DNA of 35,701 nucleotides from Verrucomicrobiia bacterium (GTDB lineage Bacteria; Verrucomicrobiota; Verrucomicrobiia; Verrucomicrobiales; Akkermansiaceae): the NCBI GenBank assembly GCA_030431475.1, contig JAUIJD010000051.1, positions 1-35,701 of the forward strand, given 5' to 3'. The notes beneath the pieces were generated by a model. It had not been told where the DNA came from. It made no database searches and saw nothing but the letters and a program-made list of their open reading frames with translations. Below, piece by piece: positions 2,095 to 35,701 of the stretch. The number at the start of each line of letters is the position of its first letter. Position 1 is the stretch's first letter. The position numbers were made by a program, and so were the translations under genes.

Positions 2095-3099
2095 ATGCCA
2101 CCCCAACCCACCGACACCCTCGGGCGCCCGCTCCACGACCTCCGCATCTCCGTCACTGACCGCTGCAATTTCCGCTGCCGCTACTGCATGCCCGCCGAGG
2201 AGTTCGGACCGGATCACGCCTTTCTACCCCGATCGGAGATCCTCAGCTTCGAGGAGATCACCCGATTCTCGCGCATCGCCACCACTCTCGGCGTGCGAAA
2301 ACTCCGACTGACGGGCGGCGAACCGCTGCTCCGCCGCGGCCTTGAGGATCTCGTCGCAATGCTCGCCGCCATCGACGGCATTGAAGACCTGGCACTGACC
2401 ACCAACGGCGTCCTCCTCGCCCACCATGCCGAGGCACTCGCACTCGCCGGCCTTTCGCGGGTCACCGTCAGCCTCGACGCACTTGATCCGGAGGTTTTCG
2501 CCCGCATGAACGGGGTTGGGGCCAAGGTCGACCGCGTGCTGGCCGGCATCTCCACCGCCCGCACCTTCGGTCTTCCGGTCAAGATCAACACCGTCGTCCA
2601 ACGCGGCGTCAACGAGCAAGAGATCCTTCCACTCGTCGCGTGGGCCCGCGGACAAGAGGTCACGCTGCGTTTCATCGAGTTCATGGACGTCGGGGAGACC
2701 AACCACTGGGACCGAAGCCAGGTGGTCACCGCCGAAGAAATCCTCGGCCACATCCGCGAGCGCTTTCCCCTCCGACCGGTCAAACCCTCCCACGCCGGAG
2801 AAACCGCCCGCCGCTGGCGTCACGCCGACAGCGCCGCCGAGATCGGTGTCATCGCCTCGGTCAGCCAACCGTTCTGCCGCGACTGCTCGCGGCTGCGTCT
2901 TTCGGCCGACGGCAAACTCTACACCTGCCTCTTCACCGCCGCCGGCCACGACCTTCGCGGACTGCTACGATCGGGCGGCGACGACCGGATGCTCCGGGCA
3001 ACCCTGCGCGGCATCTGGTCATCGCGCACGGACCGCTACTCCGAACTCCGCGGAGAGGGCCGCCATCCGAAGGCCGAGATGAGCTACCTAGGAGGCTAG
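2095..3099 (+). CDS. moaA: GTP 3',8-cyclase MoaA (copy 1)
   Basis: A 334-residue radical SAM enzyme that makes the cyclic intermediate of molybdopterin from GTP in the cytoplasm (with MoaC it yields cPMP). The N-terminal cluster motif is C24-X3-C28-X2-C31 (CNFRCRYCM). The C-terminal cluster motif is CRDCSRLRLSADG followed by a third Cys (CX2CX13C), and the protein ends in the usual Gly-Gly (SYLGG). The ATG is 15 nt after porin copy 1. A second moaA at 17440 is about 76% identical by my manual alignment, so the two are clearly diverged, unlike the porins beside them. This copy is probably tied to the respiratory operon at the left edge. Confidence 0.95.
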   Translation: MPPQPTDTLGRPLHDLRISVTDRCNFRCRYCMPAEEFGPDHAFLPRSEILSFEEITRFSRIATTLGVRKLRLTGGEPLLRRGLEDLVAMLAAIDGIEDLALTTNGVLLAHHAEALALAGLSRVTVSLDALDPEVFARMNGVGAKVDRVLAGISTARTFGLPVKINTVVQRGVNEQEILPLVAWARGQEVTLRFIEFMDVGETNHWDRSQVVTAEEILGHIRERFPLRPVKPSHAGETARRWRHADSAAEIGVIASVSQPFCRDCSRLRLSADGKLYTCLFTAAGHDLRGLLRSGGDDRMLRATLRGIWSSRTDRYSELRGEGRHPKAEMSYLGG

Positions 3100-17363: not shown

Positions 17364-17390
17364 TTCCGTCCACGCACGGATGCTTGGTAA

Positions 17391-17419
17391 GGGCCCGGTG
17401 GAATCCTTCCACCGGGCCC
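17391..17419 (+). terminator. Strong stem-loop between porin 2 and moaA 2
   Basis: GGGCCCGGTGGAA (17391-17403) and its exact complement (17407-17419) form a 13-bp stem with a 3-nt loop. No T-run follows (CCCCTCTTCC). It may act as a partial terminator/attenuator or protect the 3' end of the porin message, letting the porin be made in excess over MoaA. Copy 1 has no such structure in its 15-nt linker. Confidence 0.6.
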
Positions 17420-17439
17420 ACCCCTCTTCCGCCCGCCCC

Positions 17440-18450
17440 ATGACCGACGACGCCCCGACCCGTGACACCCTCGGCCGGTCGCTCCACGACCTGCGGATCT
17501 CGGTGACCGACCGCTGCAACTTCCGCTGCCGCTACTGCATGCCGGCCGAGGAGTTCGGGCCGGGCCACGAGTTCCTTCCCCGGTCGGAGATCCTCAGCTT
17601 CGAGGAGATCGTCCGCCTGTCGGGGGTCGCCCGCTCCCTCGGCGTGAGGAAGCTGCGCCTGACCGGTGGCGAACCGCTGCTGCGGCGCGGGATCGCCGAC
17701 CTGGTGGCGATGCTCGCCGCCATCGACGGCATCGACGATCTCGCGCTGACCACCAACGGCGTGCTGCTCGCCCACCATGCCGAGGCCCTTTCCCTGGCCG
17801 GCCTGTCGAGGGTGAGCGTCAGCCTCGATGCCCTCGATCCCTCGACCTTCTCCCGGATGAACGGCGTCGGCGCGAAGGTCGACCGGGTTCTCGCCGGCAT
17901 CCGCACCGCGGTGGCTTTCGGCCTGCCGGTCAAGGTCAACTGCGTCGTGCAACGAGGCGTGAACGAAGACCAGATCCTCCCCCTCGCAAACTGGGCGCGG
18001 GAGGAAGGCCTCACCCTTCGGTTCATCGAGTTCATGGATGTCGGGGAGACGAACCACTGGGTCCCCGATCAGGTGGTGACCGCCGACGAGATTCTCGAAA
18101 CGCTGCGGCGCGAGTTCGACCTGCGGGCGGTCGACCGGGCCCACCCGTCCGAAACCGCCCTGCGATGGCGCCACGCCGACCGCCCGGCCGAGATCGGCAT
18201 CATCGCCTCGATCAGCCGACCGTTCTGCCGCGATTGCTCGCGATTCCGGCTGTCCGCCGATGGCCAGCTTTTCACCTGCCTCTTCGCCAGCCACGGCCAC
18301 GACCTCCGACCGCTGCTCCGCGGTGGTGCCGACGACGAGATGGTTCGCCGGATGATCGCCTCCCTCTGGGGCCTGCGGGATGACCGCTACTCCGAGATCC
18401 GCGGATCGGCGCCCACTCACAAGGCGGAGATGAGCTACCTCGGAGGCTGA
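17440..18450 (+). CDS. moaA: GTP 3',8-cyclase MoaA (copy 2)
   Basis: A 336-residue radical SAM enzyme of molybdopterin synthesis. It has C26-X3-C30-X2-C33 (CNFRCRYCM), the C-terminal CRDCSRFRLSADG with third Cys, and a terminal Gly-Gly (SYLGG). The ATG at 17440 was chosen by alignment with copy 1; an earlier in-frame ATG at 17380 would translate the stem-loop. It is expected to be transcribed from the nitrate-island promoter of porin 2. Its 3' end overlaps the LysR gene on the other strand by 16 nt. Together with the moeA-moaC-mobA/moaD-moaE block it supplies cofactor for NasA. Confidence 0.95.
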   Translation: MTDDAPTRDTLGRSLHDLRISVTDRCNFRCRYCMPAEEFGPGHEFLPRSEILSFEEIVRLSGVARSLGVRKLRLTGGEPLLRRGIADLVAMLAAIDGIDDLALTTNGVLLAHHAEALSLAGLSRVSVSLDALDPSTFSRMNGVGAKVDRVLAGIRTAVAFGLPVKVNCVVQRGVNEDQILPLANWAREEGLTLRFIEFMDVGETNHWVPDQVVTADEILETLRREFDLRAVDRAHPSETALRWRHADRPAEIGIIASISRPFCRDCSRFRLSADGQLFTCLFASHGHDLRPLLRGGADDEMVRRMIASLWGLRDDRYSEIRGSAPTHKAEMSYLGG

Positions 18451-32757: not shown

Positions 32758-33921
32758 ATGGACCCGCTGATCTCACCCGCCGAAGCCGACGCCCGCATCG
32801 CCGCGGCCTTGCCGCCACCGGCTTCCGAGCACATCGACCTCATCGCCGCCATCGGGCGCACGCTGAGCAGCCCCATCGTCGCCGACCGCGCGCTGCCGCC
32901 CTACCCGCGCGCCATGATGGACGGCTACGCGATCACCCACGATTCAATCCGTCCCGACGGCCGGCTGGCGCCCGCCGGGCTGCACGCCGCCGGCGACCCG
33001 CCCCCCGCCACACTCACGCCCGGCACCTGTTGGGAGATCATGACGGGCGCCTGCGTCCCGAGCGACTGCATCGCGGTGGTCCCCTACGAAGACGTCGATG
33101 CGGATTTCGTCGTGACATCCAAGGTCGCGCCCGGCCAATTCATCCACCCGGCCGGCAGCGACGCCGAGGCCGGCGAGATACTCGTGCCCGCCGGCCATTT
33201 CATCGGCCCGGCCGAGATCGCCATCGCGGCCTCGGTCGGACTCACCCCCTTGGAGATCACCCGCCGGCCCCGCATCGCCCTCATCACCAGTGGCGACGAA
33301 ACCGTGCCCATCGACACCGCCCCCGAGCCCTGGCAGATCCGCCGCTCGAATGGCCCGATGATCGAAACGCTGCTCCGCTCCCGTGGCTTCGATGGCGTGG
33401 AAAGCCACCACATTCCCGACGAGGCGCAGGCCGCTCGAGGCATCATCCGCCGTTGCCTCGAATGCGCCGACCTGATCGTGCTCTGCGGCGGCATTTCCAA
33501 GGGCAAGCGCGATCTGATCCGCCCGCTGCTGGAGGAAAGCCTCGGCACGCCTTCCTTCCACGGCGTCGCCCAGAAGCCCGGCAAGCCGCTCGCGTTCTGG
33601 CCCGGCCCGCCGCTGATCTTCGCCCTGCCGGGAAACCCCGTTTCCGTCCTCGCCACCTTCACCCGCTACGTCCTCCCGACCCTCACCCGTCTCGAAGGCC
33701 GCGAGCCCTCGCCCCGCCGTCGCGCCCTTCCGGCCGACGTCGCCCCCCTGCCCAAGCTCACCTGGCTCCTTCCGCTCGATGCCGCCGGTGATCCCCGCCC
33801 GCCACAGAATTCCGGCGACTTCGTCTCCATCGCCGGCACCGCCGGCTTCCTCGAAATCCCGCCTGCTCGGGATTTCACTGTCGGCCAGCCGCTCCGCTTC
33901 TACTCTTTCACCGATCACTGA
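32758..33921 (+). CDS. moeA: Molybdopterin molybdenumtransferase
   Basis: A 387-residue protein with YPRAMMDGYAI (the conserved MDGYA loop), IMTGACVP and VPYEDV. PRIALITSGDE and LIVLCGGISKGKRDLI follow, plus QKPGKPLAFWPGPPLIFALPGNPVS, the MPT-adenylate/molybdate site, in the order expected for MoeA domains 2, 3 and 4. It inserts molybdate into molybdopterin. The enzyme that makes the adenylated intermediate (MogA/MoaB) is not in the window. The ATG is 4 nt after the MOSC gene and moaC follows after 13 nt. Slightly shorter than E. coli MoeA (411). Confidence 0.93.
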   Translation: MDPLISPAEADARIAAALPPPASEHIDLIAAIGRTLSSPIVADRALPPYPRAMMDGYAITHDSIRPDGRLAPAGLHAAGDPPPATLTPGTCWEIMTGACVPSDCIAVVPYEDVDADFVVTSKVAPGQFIHPAGSDAEAGEILVPAGHFIGPAEIAIAASVGLTPLEITRRPRIALITSGDETVPIDTAPEPWQIRRSNGPMIETLLRSRGFDGVESHHIPDEAQAARGIIRRCLECADLIVLCGGISKGKRDLIRPLLEESLGTPSFHGVAQKPGKPLAFWPGPPLIFALPGNPVSVLATFTRYVLPTLTRLEGREPSPRRRALPADVAPLPKLTWLLPLDAAGDPRPPQNSGDFVSIAGTAGFLEIPPARDFTVGQPLRFYSFTDH

Positions 33922-34441: not shown

Positions 34442-35260
34442 ATGAGAGCCCTCATCCTCACCGGCGGTCGCAGCAAGCGGATGGGCCGCGACAAGCACGC
34501 CATCGAGCGCCCCGACGGCACCCGCCAGCTCGACGCGCTCATCGCCCTTGTCCGCCTGGTCACCTCGGACATCCTCCTCTCCACCAACGATCCCTCCCTC
34601 GCGCCCGAGGGCATCCCGGTCCTCCCCGATCGCCACCCCGGCAGCGGCCCCCTCGCCGCCCTCGAGGCCTTCCACGCCGCCTTCCCCGGGGAACCCGTCC
34701 TGCTCCTCGGCTGTGACCTCTTCCTTCTCGACGAGGCCACCCTCCGACACCTCCTCGAGGCCCACTCCCCTGACGTCCCGGCCAGCGCTTTCGCCAACCG
34801 CATCGACCACCGGCCGGAACCCCTCTGCACGATCTACGAGCCGGGCGCGCTCGCCCACGCGGCCACTGCGATCGCCGACGAGGAATTCTGCGCCCGCCAT
34901 TTCCTCGAGTCGCTCAATCCGCGGGTCATCGAGCTCGTCCATCCCGTCGCCCTGGACAACGCCAACACCCCCGCGGAACTCGACGAGGTCTTCGCCAAGC
35001 TCCGTCACGGCGTTGCCGCGAAGGAGATTCGCGTCCTCTATTTCGCCAAGCTACGCGAAGCCCGCGGCCTCGATGAGGAGAGCGTCGAAACCCTCGCCTG
35101 CACCGCCGGCGGACTTTACGAAGAGCTTCGATTCCGACACCGCCTGCCGCTGCGCCTCGACGCCCTCCGCTGCGCCCGCAACGGCGACTTCTGCGACTGG
35201 GGCACTCCCCTCGAACCCGGCGACGAGATCGTGTTCATCCCGCCCGTCGCCGGCGGCTGA
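34442..35260 (+). CDS. mobA: MobA-MoaD fusion: molybdopterin guanylyltransferase plus sulfur-carrier subunit
   Basis: A 272-residue protein with two domains. Residues 1 to about 190 are MobA-like: LILTGGRSKRMGRDKHAI (the nucleotide loop), PDRHPGSGPLAALEAF and LLLGCDLFLLDE. The family's usual CDMP is CDLF here. Residues about 194-272 are MoaD-like with a ubiquitin fold: IRVLYFAKLREARGLDEE, GDEIVFIPPVAGG, ending in the Gly-Gly that must be thiocarboxylated and inserted in MoaE. MobA adds GMP to molybdopterin to give the MGD form NasA needs. Both parts belong to one pathway but to different steps. moaE follows after 19 nt. Confidence 0.9.
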   Translation: MRALILTGGRSKRMGRDKHAIERPDGTRQLDALIALVRLVTSDILLSTNDPSLAPEGIPVLPDRHPGSGPLAALEAFHAAFPGEPVLLLGCDLFLLDEATLRHLLEAHSPDVPASAFANRIDHRPEPLCTIYEPGALAHAATAIADEEFCARHFLESLNPRVIELVHPVALDNANTPAELDEVFAKLRHGVAAKEIRVLYFAKLREARGLDEESVETLACTAGGLYEELRFRHRLPLRLDALRCARNGDFCDWGTPLEPGDEIVFIPPVAGG

Positions 35261-35279: not shown

Positions 35280-35701
35280 ATGTTCCGCATCCAATCCTCA
35301 CCCCTCGACCCCGCGCTCCTGCGCGCCGAGGTCCTCGACCCCGCCGCCGGCGGCTTCTGCAGCTTCGAGGGCTGGGTCCGCAATCATCATCAGGGCCGGG
35401 AAGTCGATCGCCTTGAGTACGAGGCCTACGCCCCGCTGGCGGAAACGGAGGGCCGGCGCATTCTCGCCGAAGCCCACGAGCGGTTCGAGATCCACCATGC
35501 CGTCTGCGTCCACCGCACCGGCCCGATCGAGATCGGTGGGCTGGCCGTGGTGGTGAGCGTCAGCTCCGCCCACCGCGATGCCGCCTTCGACGCCTGCCGC
35601 TACATCATCGATGAAGTGAAGTCGCGCGTGCCCATCTGGAAGAAGGAGTATTTCGCGGACGGCTCCAGCGGCTGGGTGCGGTGCGACCACTGCGCCGGGC
35701 A
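35280..35701 (+). CDS. moaE: Molybdopterin synthase catalytic subunit, C-terminus cut by the window
   Basis: Open from ATG 35280 to the window end (140 codons plus two bases, no stop yet; E. coli MoaE has 150). It shows FEGWVRNHHQGREVDRLEYEAY, VHRTGPIEIGG, VVVSVSSAHRDAAF and VPIWKKEYFADGSSGWV, with the conserved Arg/His and the Lys pair that bind precursor Z. It uses the thiocarboxylated MoaD tail (here the fused domain of the preceding protein) to add the dithiolene sulfurs. It is probably nearly complete. Confidence 0.93.
   Translation, partial: MFRIQSSPLDPALLRAEVLDPAAGGFCSFEGWVRNHHQGREVDRLEYEAYAPLAETEGRRILAEAHERFEIHHAVCVHRTGPIEIGGLAVVVSVSSAHRDAAFDACRYIIDEVKSRVPIWKKEYFADGSSGWVRCDHCAG

Follow-up and report, generated by a model that had tools for sequence, protein, structure and literature searches.

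A MobA-MoaD fusion protein with a free Gly-Gly tail recurs in verrucomicrobial and proteobacterial genomes

A gene encoding a MobA-type nucleotidyltransferase joined to a MoaD-type sulfur carrier was identified at the end of a contig from a Verrucomicrobiia bacterium (the window, i.e. the whole stretch of 35,701 nucleotides analysed here), and the same MobA-MoaD fusion is real and widespread among related genomes. We consider it quite probable that the protein is bifunctional, with MobA carrying the cell's sole MoaD on a tether, that the benefit lies in the stoichiometry and co-location of the two activities, and that the fused carrier can decay in genomes with a second moaD-moaE pair. The parts of the gene are as follows.

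34442..35260, + strand: mobA::moaD fusion gene; ATG start, 272 amino acids, then TGA; PF12804 and PF02597 both over cut-off
34442..35008, + strand: MobA-type nucleotidyltransferase domain with its C-terminal helix (residues 1-189); from PF12804 and MobA structure alignments
35009..35020, + strand: short linker (residues 190-193); pLDDT 97 (blocks 181-190 and 191-200), no in-frame ATG/GTG/TTG
35021..35257, + strand: MoaD-type ubiquitin-like sulfur-carrier domain (residues 194-272); from PF02597, with TIGR01682 below cut-off
35252..35257, + strand: C-terminal Gly-Gly, free at the protein end; from the sequence

The protein ends in PPVAGG, with TGA directly after. Pfam NTP_transf_3 (PF12804, MobA-like) covers residues 3-158 (91.4 bits, cut-off 27) and the ThiS/MoaD family (PF02597) residues 198-272 (59.6 bits, cut-off 22.5), both within one open reading frame, which confirms the preliminary description of MobA and MoaD joined in a single protein. 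The N-terminal half contains the motif LTGGRSKRMG, which we take to be MobA-like. Its score against the curated NCBIfam MobA equivalog TIGR02665 was 56.5 bits, and because the cut-off of 151.85 is not reached, this half is, as judged by profile, MobA-type, short of a certified MobA. Its top NCBIfam scores were with the PRK14490 and PRK14500 models (92.8 and 82.3 bits; cut-offs 354 and 606). The carrier half scored 51.9 bits with the moaD equivalog TIGR01682, below the cut-off of 66.15, and two standalone MoaD proteins of relatives also fell under this cut-off (37.8 and 42.0 bits).

The fusion gene lies within a cluster in the order moeA-moaC-mobA::moaD-moaE, with the following neighbours.

35280..35701, + strand: moaE, molybdopterin synthase large subunit, truncated at the contig end; full-length PF02391 match, 128.3 bits
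33935..34414, + strand: moaC; PF01967 at 165.9 bits, TIGR00581 over cut-off
32758..33921, + strand: moeA; PF03453 and PF00994
32268..32753, + strand: MOSC-domain protein; PF03473 at 46.6 bits
29202..31439, + strand: molybdopterin-dinucleotide oxidoreductase, start codon uncertain; PF00384, PF01568 and PF04879

The start of moaE is 19 nt past the fusion stop codon, and the contig, which is the whole window, ends within moaE. The free C-terminal Gly-Gly tail next to moaE, to which the preliminary description drew attention, is thus borne out by the sequence and by PF02391. A TauE-type exporter gene is also found upstream of the fusion, together with the oxidoreductase, the MOSC protein, moeA and moaC. 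By its domains the oxidoreductase appears nitrate-reductase-like, and it is likely a user of the cofactor. The same contig contains two moaA-type genes (2095-3099 and 17380-18450, + strand), both well above cut-off, with PF06463 matches at 2662-3042 and 18013-18393. As for the MoeB held to be needed for adenylation of the carrier, PF00899 gave two matches in the host genome, one TcdA-like protein and one MoeB with a rhodanese domain; the latter is encoded elsewhere in the genome (contig C3) and exceeds the MoeB subfamily cut-off.

With the window protein as query, a match was obtained in 78 of 97 sampled genomes, and a single open frame across both domains was present in 47 (the own genome is included in both counts). 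Of these 47, family f1, that of the window, accounts for 46 (out of 59 genomes) and family f6 for one (G063); 42 have the Gly-Gly end. A wider scan covered one genome for each of 84,980 species that had an alignment; it yielded 349 candidate stretches, 297 of them coding for relatives, from which the 80 best were retained. Among the best 80 of the 297, 76 have a single frame across both domains, the exceptions being separate adjacent genes in L173, L178 and L186 and a broken frame in L182. The Gly-Gly end is present in 75 of the best 80 loci (L154 lies at a contig end, with its stop codon unseen), and moaE, moaC and moeA were matched within the fetched stretches of 67, 71 and 53 of the 80, respectively. 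All 78 fused domains compared end in Gly-Gly, in a comparison that leaves out the tail-less L121 and four non-fused or broken loci. Record titles describe 45 of the best 80 loci as verrucomicrobial and 35 as proteobacterial MAGs (31 of the 35 with a single frame), and verrucomicrobial loci with the fusion include isolates of Haloferula, Luteolibacter, Roseibacillus and Rubritalea.

A frameshift artefact, named in the preliminary description as what would overturn it, is ruled out because the single frame recurs in dozens of separate assemblies, isolates included. That a sequencing or assembly error removed a stop codon has next to no likelihood, given this recurrence in two phyla by record titles; a stop or a change of frame does set a few relatives apart (L182 and the in-frame split pairs described below), with no such change found for the window gene. 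Two near-alike copies of the fusion (L124 and L125) occur ~0.24 Mb apart in Rubritalea profundi, with no moaE matched within 5 kb of either copy. The locus L119 comes from a record whose title reads Akkermansia muciniphila MAG; its fusion belongs to the genus group of the window, and the label is probably wrong.

The fusion is the only carrier and the only transferase of its kind found in its own assembly, which is 95.3% complete. ThiS-family profiles matched two proteins: the fusion, and one of 67 aa passing the ThiS model; no separate moaD was found by this search. PF12804 gave seven matches, and MobA models rank top for the fusion only. Three of the other six pass cut-offs, as one IspD, one KdsB and one RmlA; the best scores of the remaining three, below cut-off, are with mannose-1-phosphate guanylyltransferase (two) and sugar-1-phosphate nucleotidyltransferase (one), so that the PF12804 search found no separate mobA in the assembly. 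The check for separate genes proposed in the preliminary description therefore returned neither; at 95.3% completeness, it is possible that a second moaD was missed. Among 13 proteobacterial genomes with the fusion (of unstated completeness), 11 gave no further match longer than 63 residues, and two, G512 and G523, have another MoaD-sized match (79 and 84 residues) besides the fusion.

The biochemistry that we infer is as follows. The N-terminal half would, from its sequence, be the cell's molybdenum-cofactor guanylyltransferase (MobA), and the C-terminal half its sole MoaD, working while tethered. MoeB would adenylate the free Gly-Gly end, leading to sulfur loading, and the loaded end would enter the product of the adjacent moaE to give molybdopterin. 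Since the carrier end is free, MoeB and MoaE could act without cleavage. The fusion would mainly fix equal amounts and co-location of both activities, for which direct channelling would be unnecessary.

In the window protein the carrier probably acts while tethered, because neither another MoaD nor an internal ATG, GTG or TTG start was found. The start-codon scan detected no in-frame ATG/GTG/TTG between codons 14 and 264 of the window gene, nor any after codon 33 of the G004 gene, so that both genes are free of them from codon 34 to 263; eight further genes in the scan do carry some. An internal start yielding free MoaD was therefore rejected for the window gene. The preliminary description had the carrier working tethered, and this stands as probable, with rare start codons and proteolysis as possible routes to a free carrier. 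Release of free MoaD from the fusion, by an internal start or by proteolysis of the linker, would make the fusion a delivery form. Cleavage has been proposed for a MoaD-MoaE fusion, in the part of PMC11237513 available to us (its reference 122 is a Deinococcus JAMM protease paper), and an ATG/GTG/TTG codon occurs somewhere in the linker region of 55 of 77 fused genes, compared with 48.5 expected from their own codon use, 14 of the 55 having an SD-like word upstream. The linker across the 77 genes thus shows neither a depletion nor a clear excess of starts, and the count is neutral for the group. Given the two genes devoid of such codons, a tail already open at the C-terminus, which makes cleavage unnecessary, and a linker that is short and confidently modelled, we regard release as unlikely and retain a carrier that works on its tether.

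Variation within the window's genus bears on whether the fused carrier is in use. Of the 18 genus genomes, 12 have a fusion bearing Gly-Gly, five a tail-less fusion lacking this end (G003, G008, G010, G011 and G015), and one (G017) has no fusion. Mean identity among the Gly-Gly-bearing members is 65-79% for the carrier versus 51-64% for MobA; between the tail-less five and the Gly-Gly-bearing members it is 30-59% for the carrier and 50-61% for MobA. In the close pair G008/G011, MobA is 93% identical and the carrier 53% (dN/dS 0.07 and 0.58). For hand-picked pairs, several with near-saturated dS, dN/dS was 0.07-0.24 for MobA and 0.54-0.73 for the carrier in four tail-less pairs, where carrier dN is inflated because decayed domains align poorly, and 0.10-0.38 and 0.08-0.23, respectively, in seven Gly-Gly-bearing pairs. 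As read from these alignments, the carrier domain decays in the tail-less members while MobA stays conserved.

Around the five tail-less genes, the fetched neighbourhoods gave no match to moaE, moaC or moeA. Four of the five genomes have, apart from the fusion, a MoaD whose end is SGG and a divergent MoaE adjoining it (G003 at L063, G010 at L065, G008 at L204 and G015 at L195), and in G003 and G010 this second pair has moaC and moeA on the opposite strand. In the fifth, G011 (72% complete), only ThiS was found, with no second MoaD and with MoaE only below cut-off. In 11 of the 12 Gly-Gly-bearing genomes (one of which, G005, is only 61% complete) the ThiS family matched, besides the fusion, only a small ThiS-like protein ending in IAAGG. 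The twelfth, G006, has a second MoaD and MoaE (L205), and its fused end is altered yet kept as HPAGG. With a second moaD-moaE pair present, the fused domain could lose Gly-Gly and decay while the part predicted to pack on MobA stays. On the MobA tree, tail loss requires three changes on the best tree, two to three on bootstrap trees and one on starred branches. A single loss of Gly-Gly was considered and set aside, as the best tree needs three changes, though starred branches alone force only one. Since there are at most three independent pairs, one of them on starred branches, the association of a second MoaD with tail loss is short of significance; the pattern is consistent apart from G006 and G011, which are exceptions or gaps, and it amounts to no proven correlation. 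The pattern fits a working fused carrier and speaks against an indispensable channel. In G017 (97% complete) neither the fusion nor MoaE was found, and the molybdenum-cofactor pathway seems to be lost.

Structure prediction with AlphaFold2 gave a confident model of the window protein across both domains (mean pLDDT 95.3, pTM 0.90) and a similar one for the tail-less L121 (mean pLDDT 95.1, pTM 0.91); pTM here describes a single-chain prediction, not an interface measurement. E. coli MobA structures headed the Foldseek list for the fusion model, and E. coli and Archaeoglobus MobA structures align over model residues 1-184 to 1-190 (Z 20.2-21.4). Foldseek also matched 84-residue chains from mycobacterial molybdopterin synthase entries, which would be MoaD; this match comes from the Foldseek search alone, the PDB Z-score list being filled by the MobA half with nothing past ~residue 192. 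Because the intact and the tail-less models are both confident, they suggest a defined seating of the carrier domain on MobA, and the domain is predicted to rest there in a fixed position via the linker and one helix.

The positions retained after tail loss cluster in the same regions. Linker and helix residues that match the consensus of the Gly-Gly-bearing forms in all five tail-less members are E182, F184, K186, L187, G190, V191 and K194, and L218, A219, T221, G224, L225, E228, F231 and R234 in the helix; all five also retain P177 and L180 ahead of the linker and, in neither linker nor helix, G248. Conservation is lost in strand 1 (YFAxLREARG), in most of the sheet and at the tail. Clustering as high was reached in 61 of 5000 shuffles, which ignore kinship. 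The tail-less forms thus present a ubiquitin-like carrier that loses its chemical end and retains part of its fold. Residue 224 is G in 43 of 78 fused versus 2 of 22 split domains; no inference was drawn as to a fused-specific helix residue, as this may follow phylogeny.

We raise, tentatively and at well below even chances, the possibility that the carrier docks on MobA via the linker and helix 218-234 such that each senses the other, and that in two to three lineages of one genus it has been retired as a carrier and kept in a structural or allosteric role. If so, sulfur-loaded or MoaE-bound MoaD might, for example, alter MobA activity. A more extreme proposal is that the ubiquitin-like domain is a structural or regulatory part of MobA only and no carrier at all. 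The linker and helix positions kept in all five tail-less members, and a tail-less protein still modelled as folded, would be in line with it. It is nevertheless very improbable, in view of a carrier that is better conserved than MobA in the Gly-Gly-bearing genus members, the lack of another MoaD in 11 of 12 of these and the moaE matched at 67 of the best 80 loci, all of which favour a working carrier.

The most likely origin of the fusion is a neighbouring mobA and moaD, already in the same operon order and often with overlapping ends. Among the matches, twenty split mobA-moaD pairs were selected and read; the two genes are adjacent, usually within a moeA-moaC-mobA-moaD-moaE series. In seven pairs they overlap by 4 nt, and in another four a stop and 3-9 nt separate genes that lie in a single frame. 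One genus contains both states (G063 fused, G066 split). A midpoint-rooted tree was built from 81 MobA domains, 57 of them fused and 24 not, and 34 of its 77 inner branches are open; four of the 24 rows counted as split (L070, L073, L242 and L243) are MobA for which no adjacent moaD was found. The best tree has six changes between fused and split states, starred branches requiring at least three of them, and all 19 proteobacterial sequences fall in a single starred group holding both states. A single origin of the fusion is unsupported by these counts. The natural reading is repeated joining or splitting of a coupled pair of genes, in either direction given the midpoint root and the open inner branches.

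The preliminary description had suggested that the tether could channel the product from sulfur transfer to GMP addition, i.e. from MoaE to MobA. The predicted fixed arrangement of the domains would be compatible with this, and the recurrent state changes (six on the best tree, at least three on starred branches) may mean that the fusion has been selected repeatedly. However, sulfur transfer and the MobA step are separated by two others, in which MogA adenylylates and MoeA inserts the metal (PMC13197769, in the portion available), and a direct channel is doubtful because MobA acts after these two enzymes. In addition, split forms exist in the same gene order, even inside a single genus (that of G063 and G066), and the link between MobA and MoaD is dispensable, because five relatives lost the fused Gly-Gly end and still have a conserved MobA. 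We therefore hold channelling to be quite improbable; co-production and co-location in a larger assembly would be sufficient in its place.

In the passages available of PMC1779556, PMC6147048, PMC11237513 and PMC2948915, the fusion partners named for MoaD are MoaE, MoeB and oxidoreductases, and MobA is absent. No description of a MobA-MoaD fusion was found in the available portions of the open-licence literature searched, PMC13197769 and PMC2700814 included; PMC3906898, by its title, concerns MoaD as an engineered fusion tag. Linear MoaD-MoaE fusions likewise join a MoaD domain to another molybdenum-cofactor protein (excerpts of PMC1779556 and PMC11237513), but in those the tail of MoaD is not free and a cleavage step has been suggested (PMC11237513, same excerpt), whereas the window protein has a C-terminal MoaD with a free tail and MobA as its partner. 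The MoaD-MoeB fusions of Thaumarchaeota and some bacteria, as outlined in the accessible text of PMC11237513, also join the sulfur carrier to a pathway enzyme; there the carrier is on its own activating enzyme, while in the window protein it is on the enzyme of a later step. The MobA-MobB and MoaC-MobA bifunctional proteins (PRK14490, PRK14500) resemble the fusion in joining MobA to another cofactor protein; in the window protein the partner is instead the sulfur carrier, and its scores lie far under the PRK14490 and PRK14500 cut-offs.

The fusion would be a naturally occurring sulfur carrier on a tether, its tail open and its partner an enzyme from a non-consecutive step. One genus with intact and tail-less fusions, the latter mostly with a replacement carrier, and relatives with split genes provide natural variants with which to test the tether. 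The separate adjacent mobA and moaD genes encode homologous proteins in the same neighbourhood as the fusion, as two proteins rather than one. Those in frame, at L228 (G335), L173, L178 and L186, with only a stop and 3-9 nt between mobA and moaD, are one step from fusion or fission.
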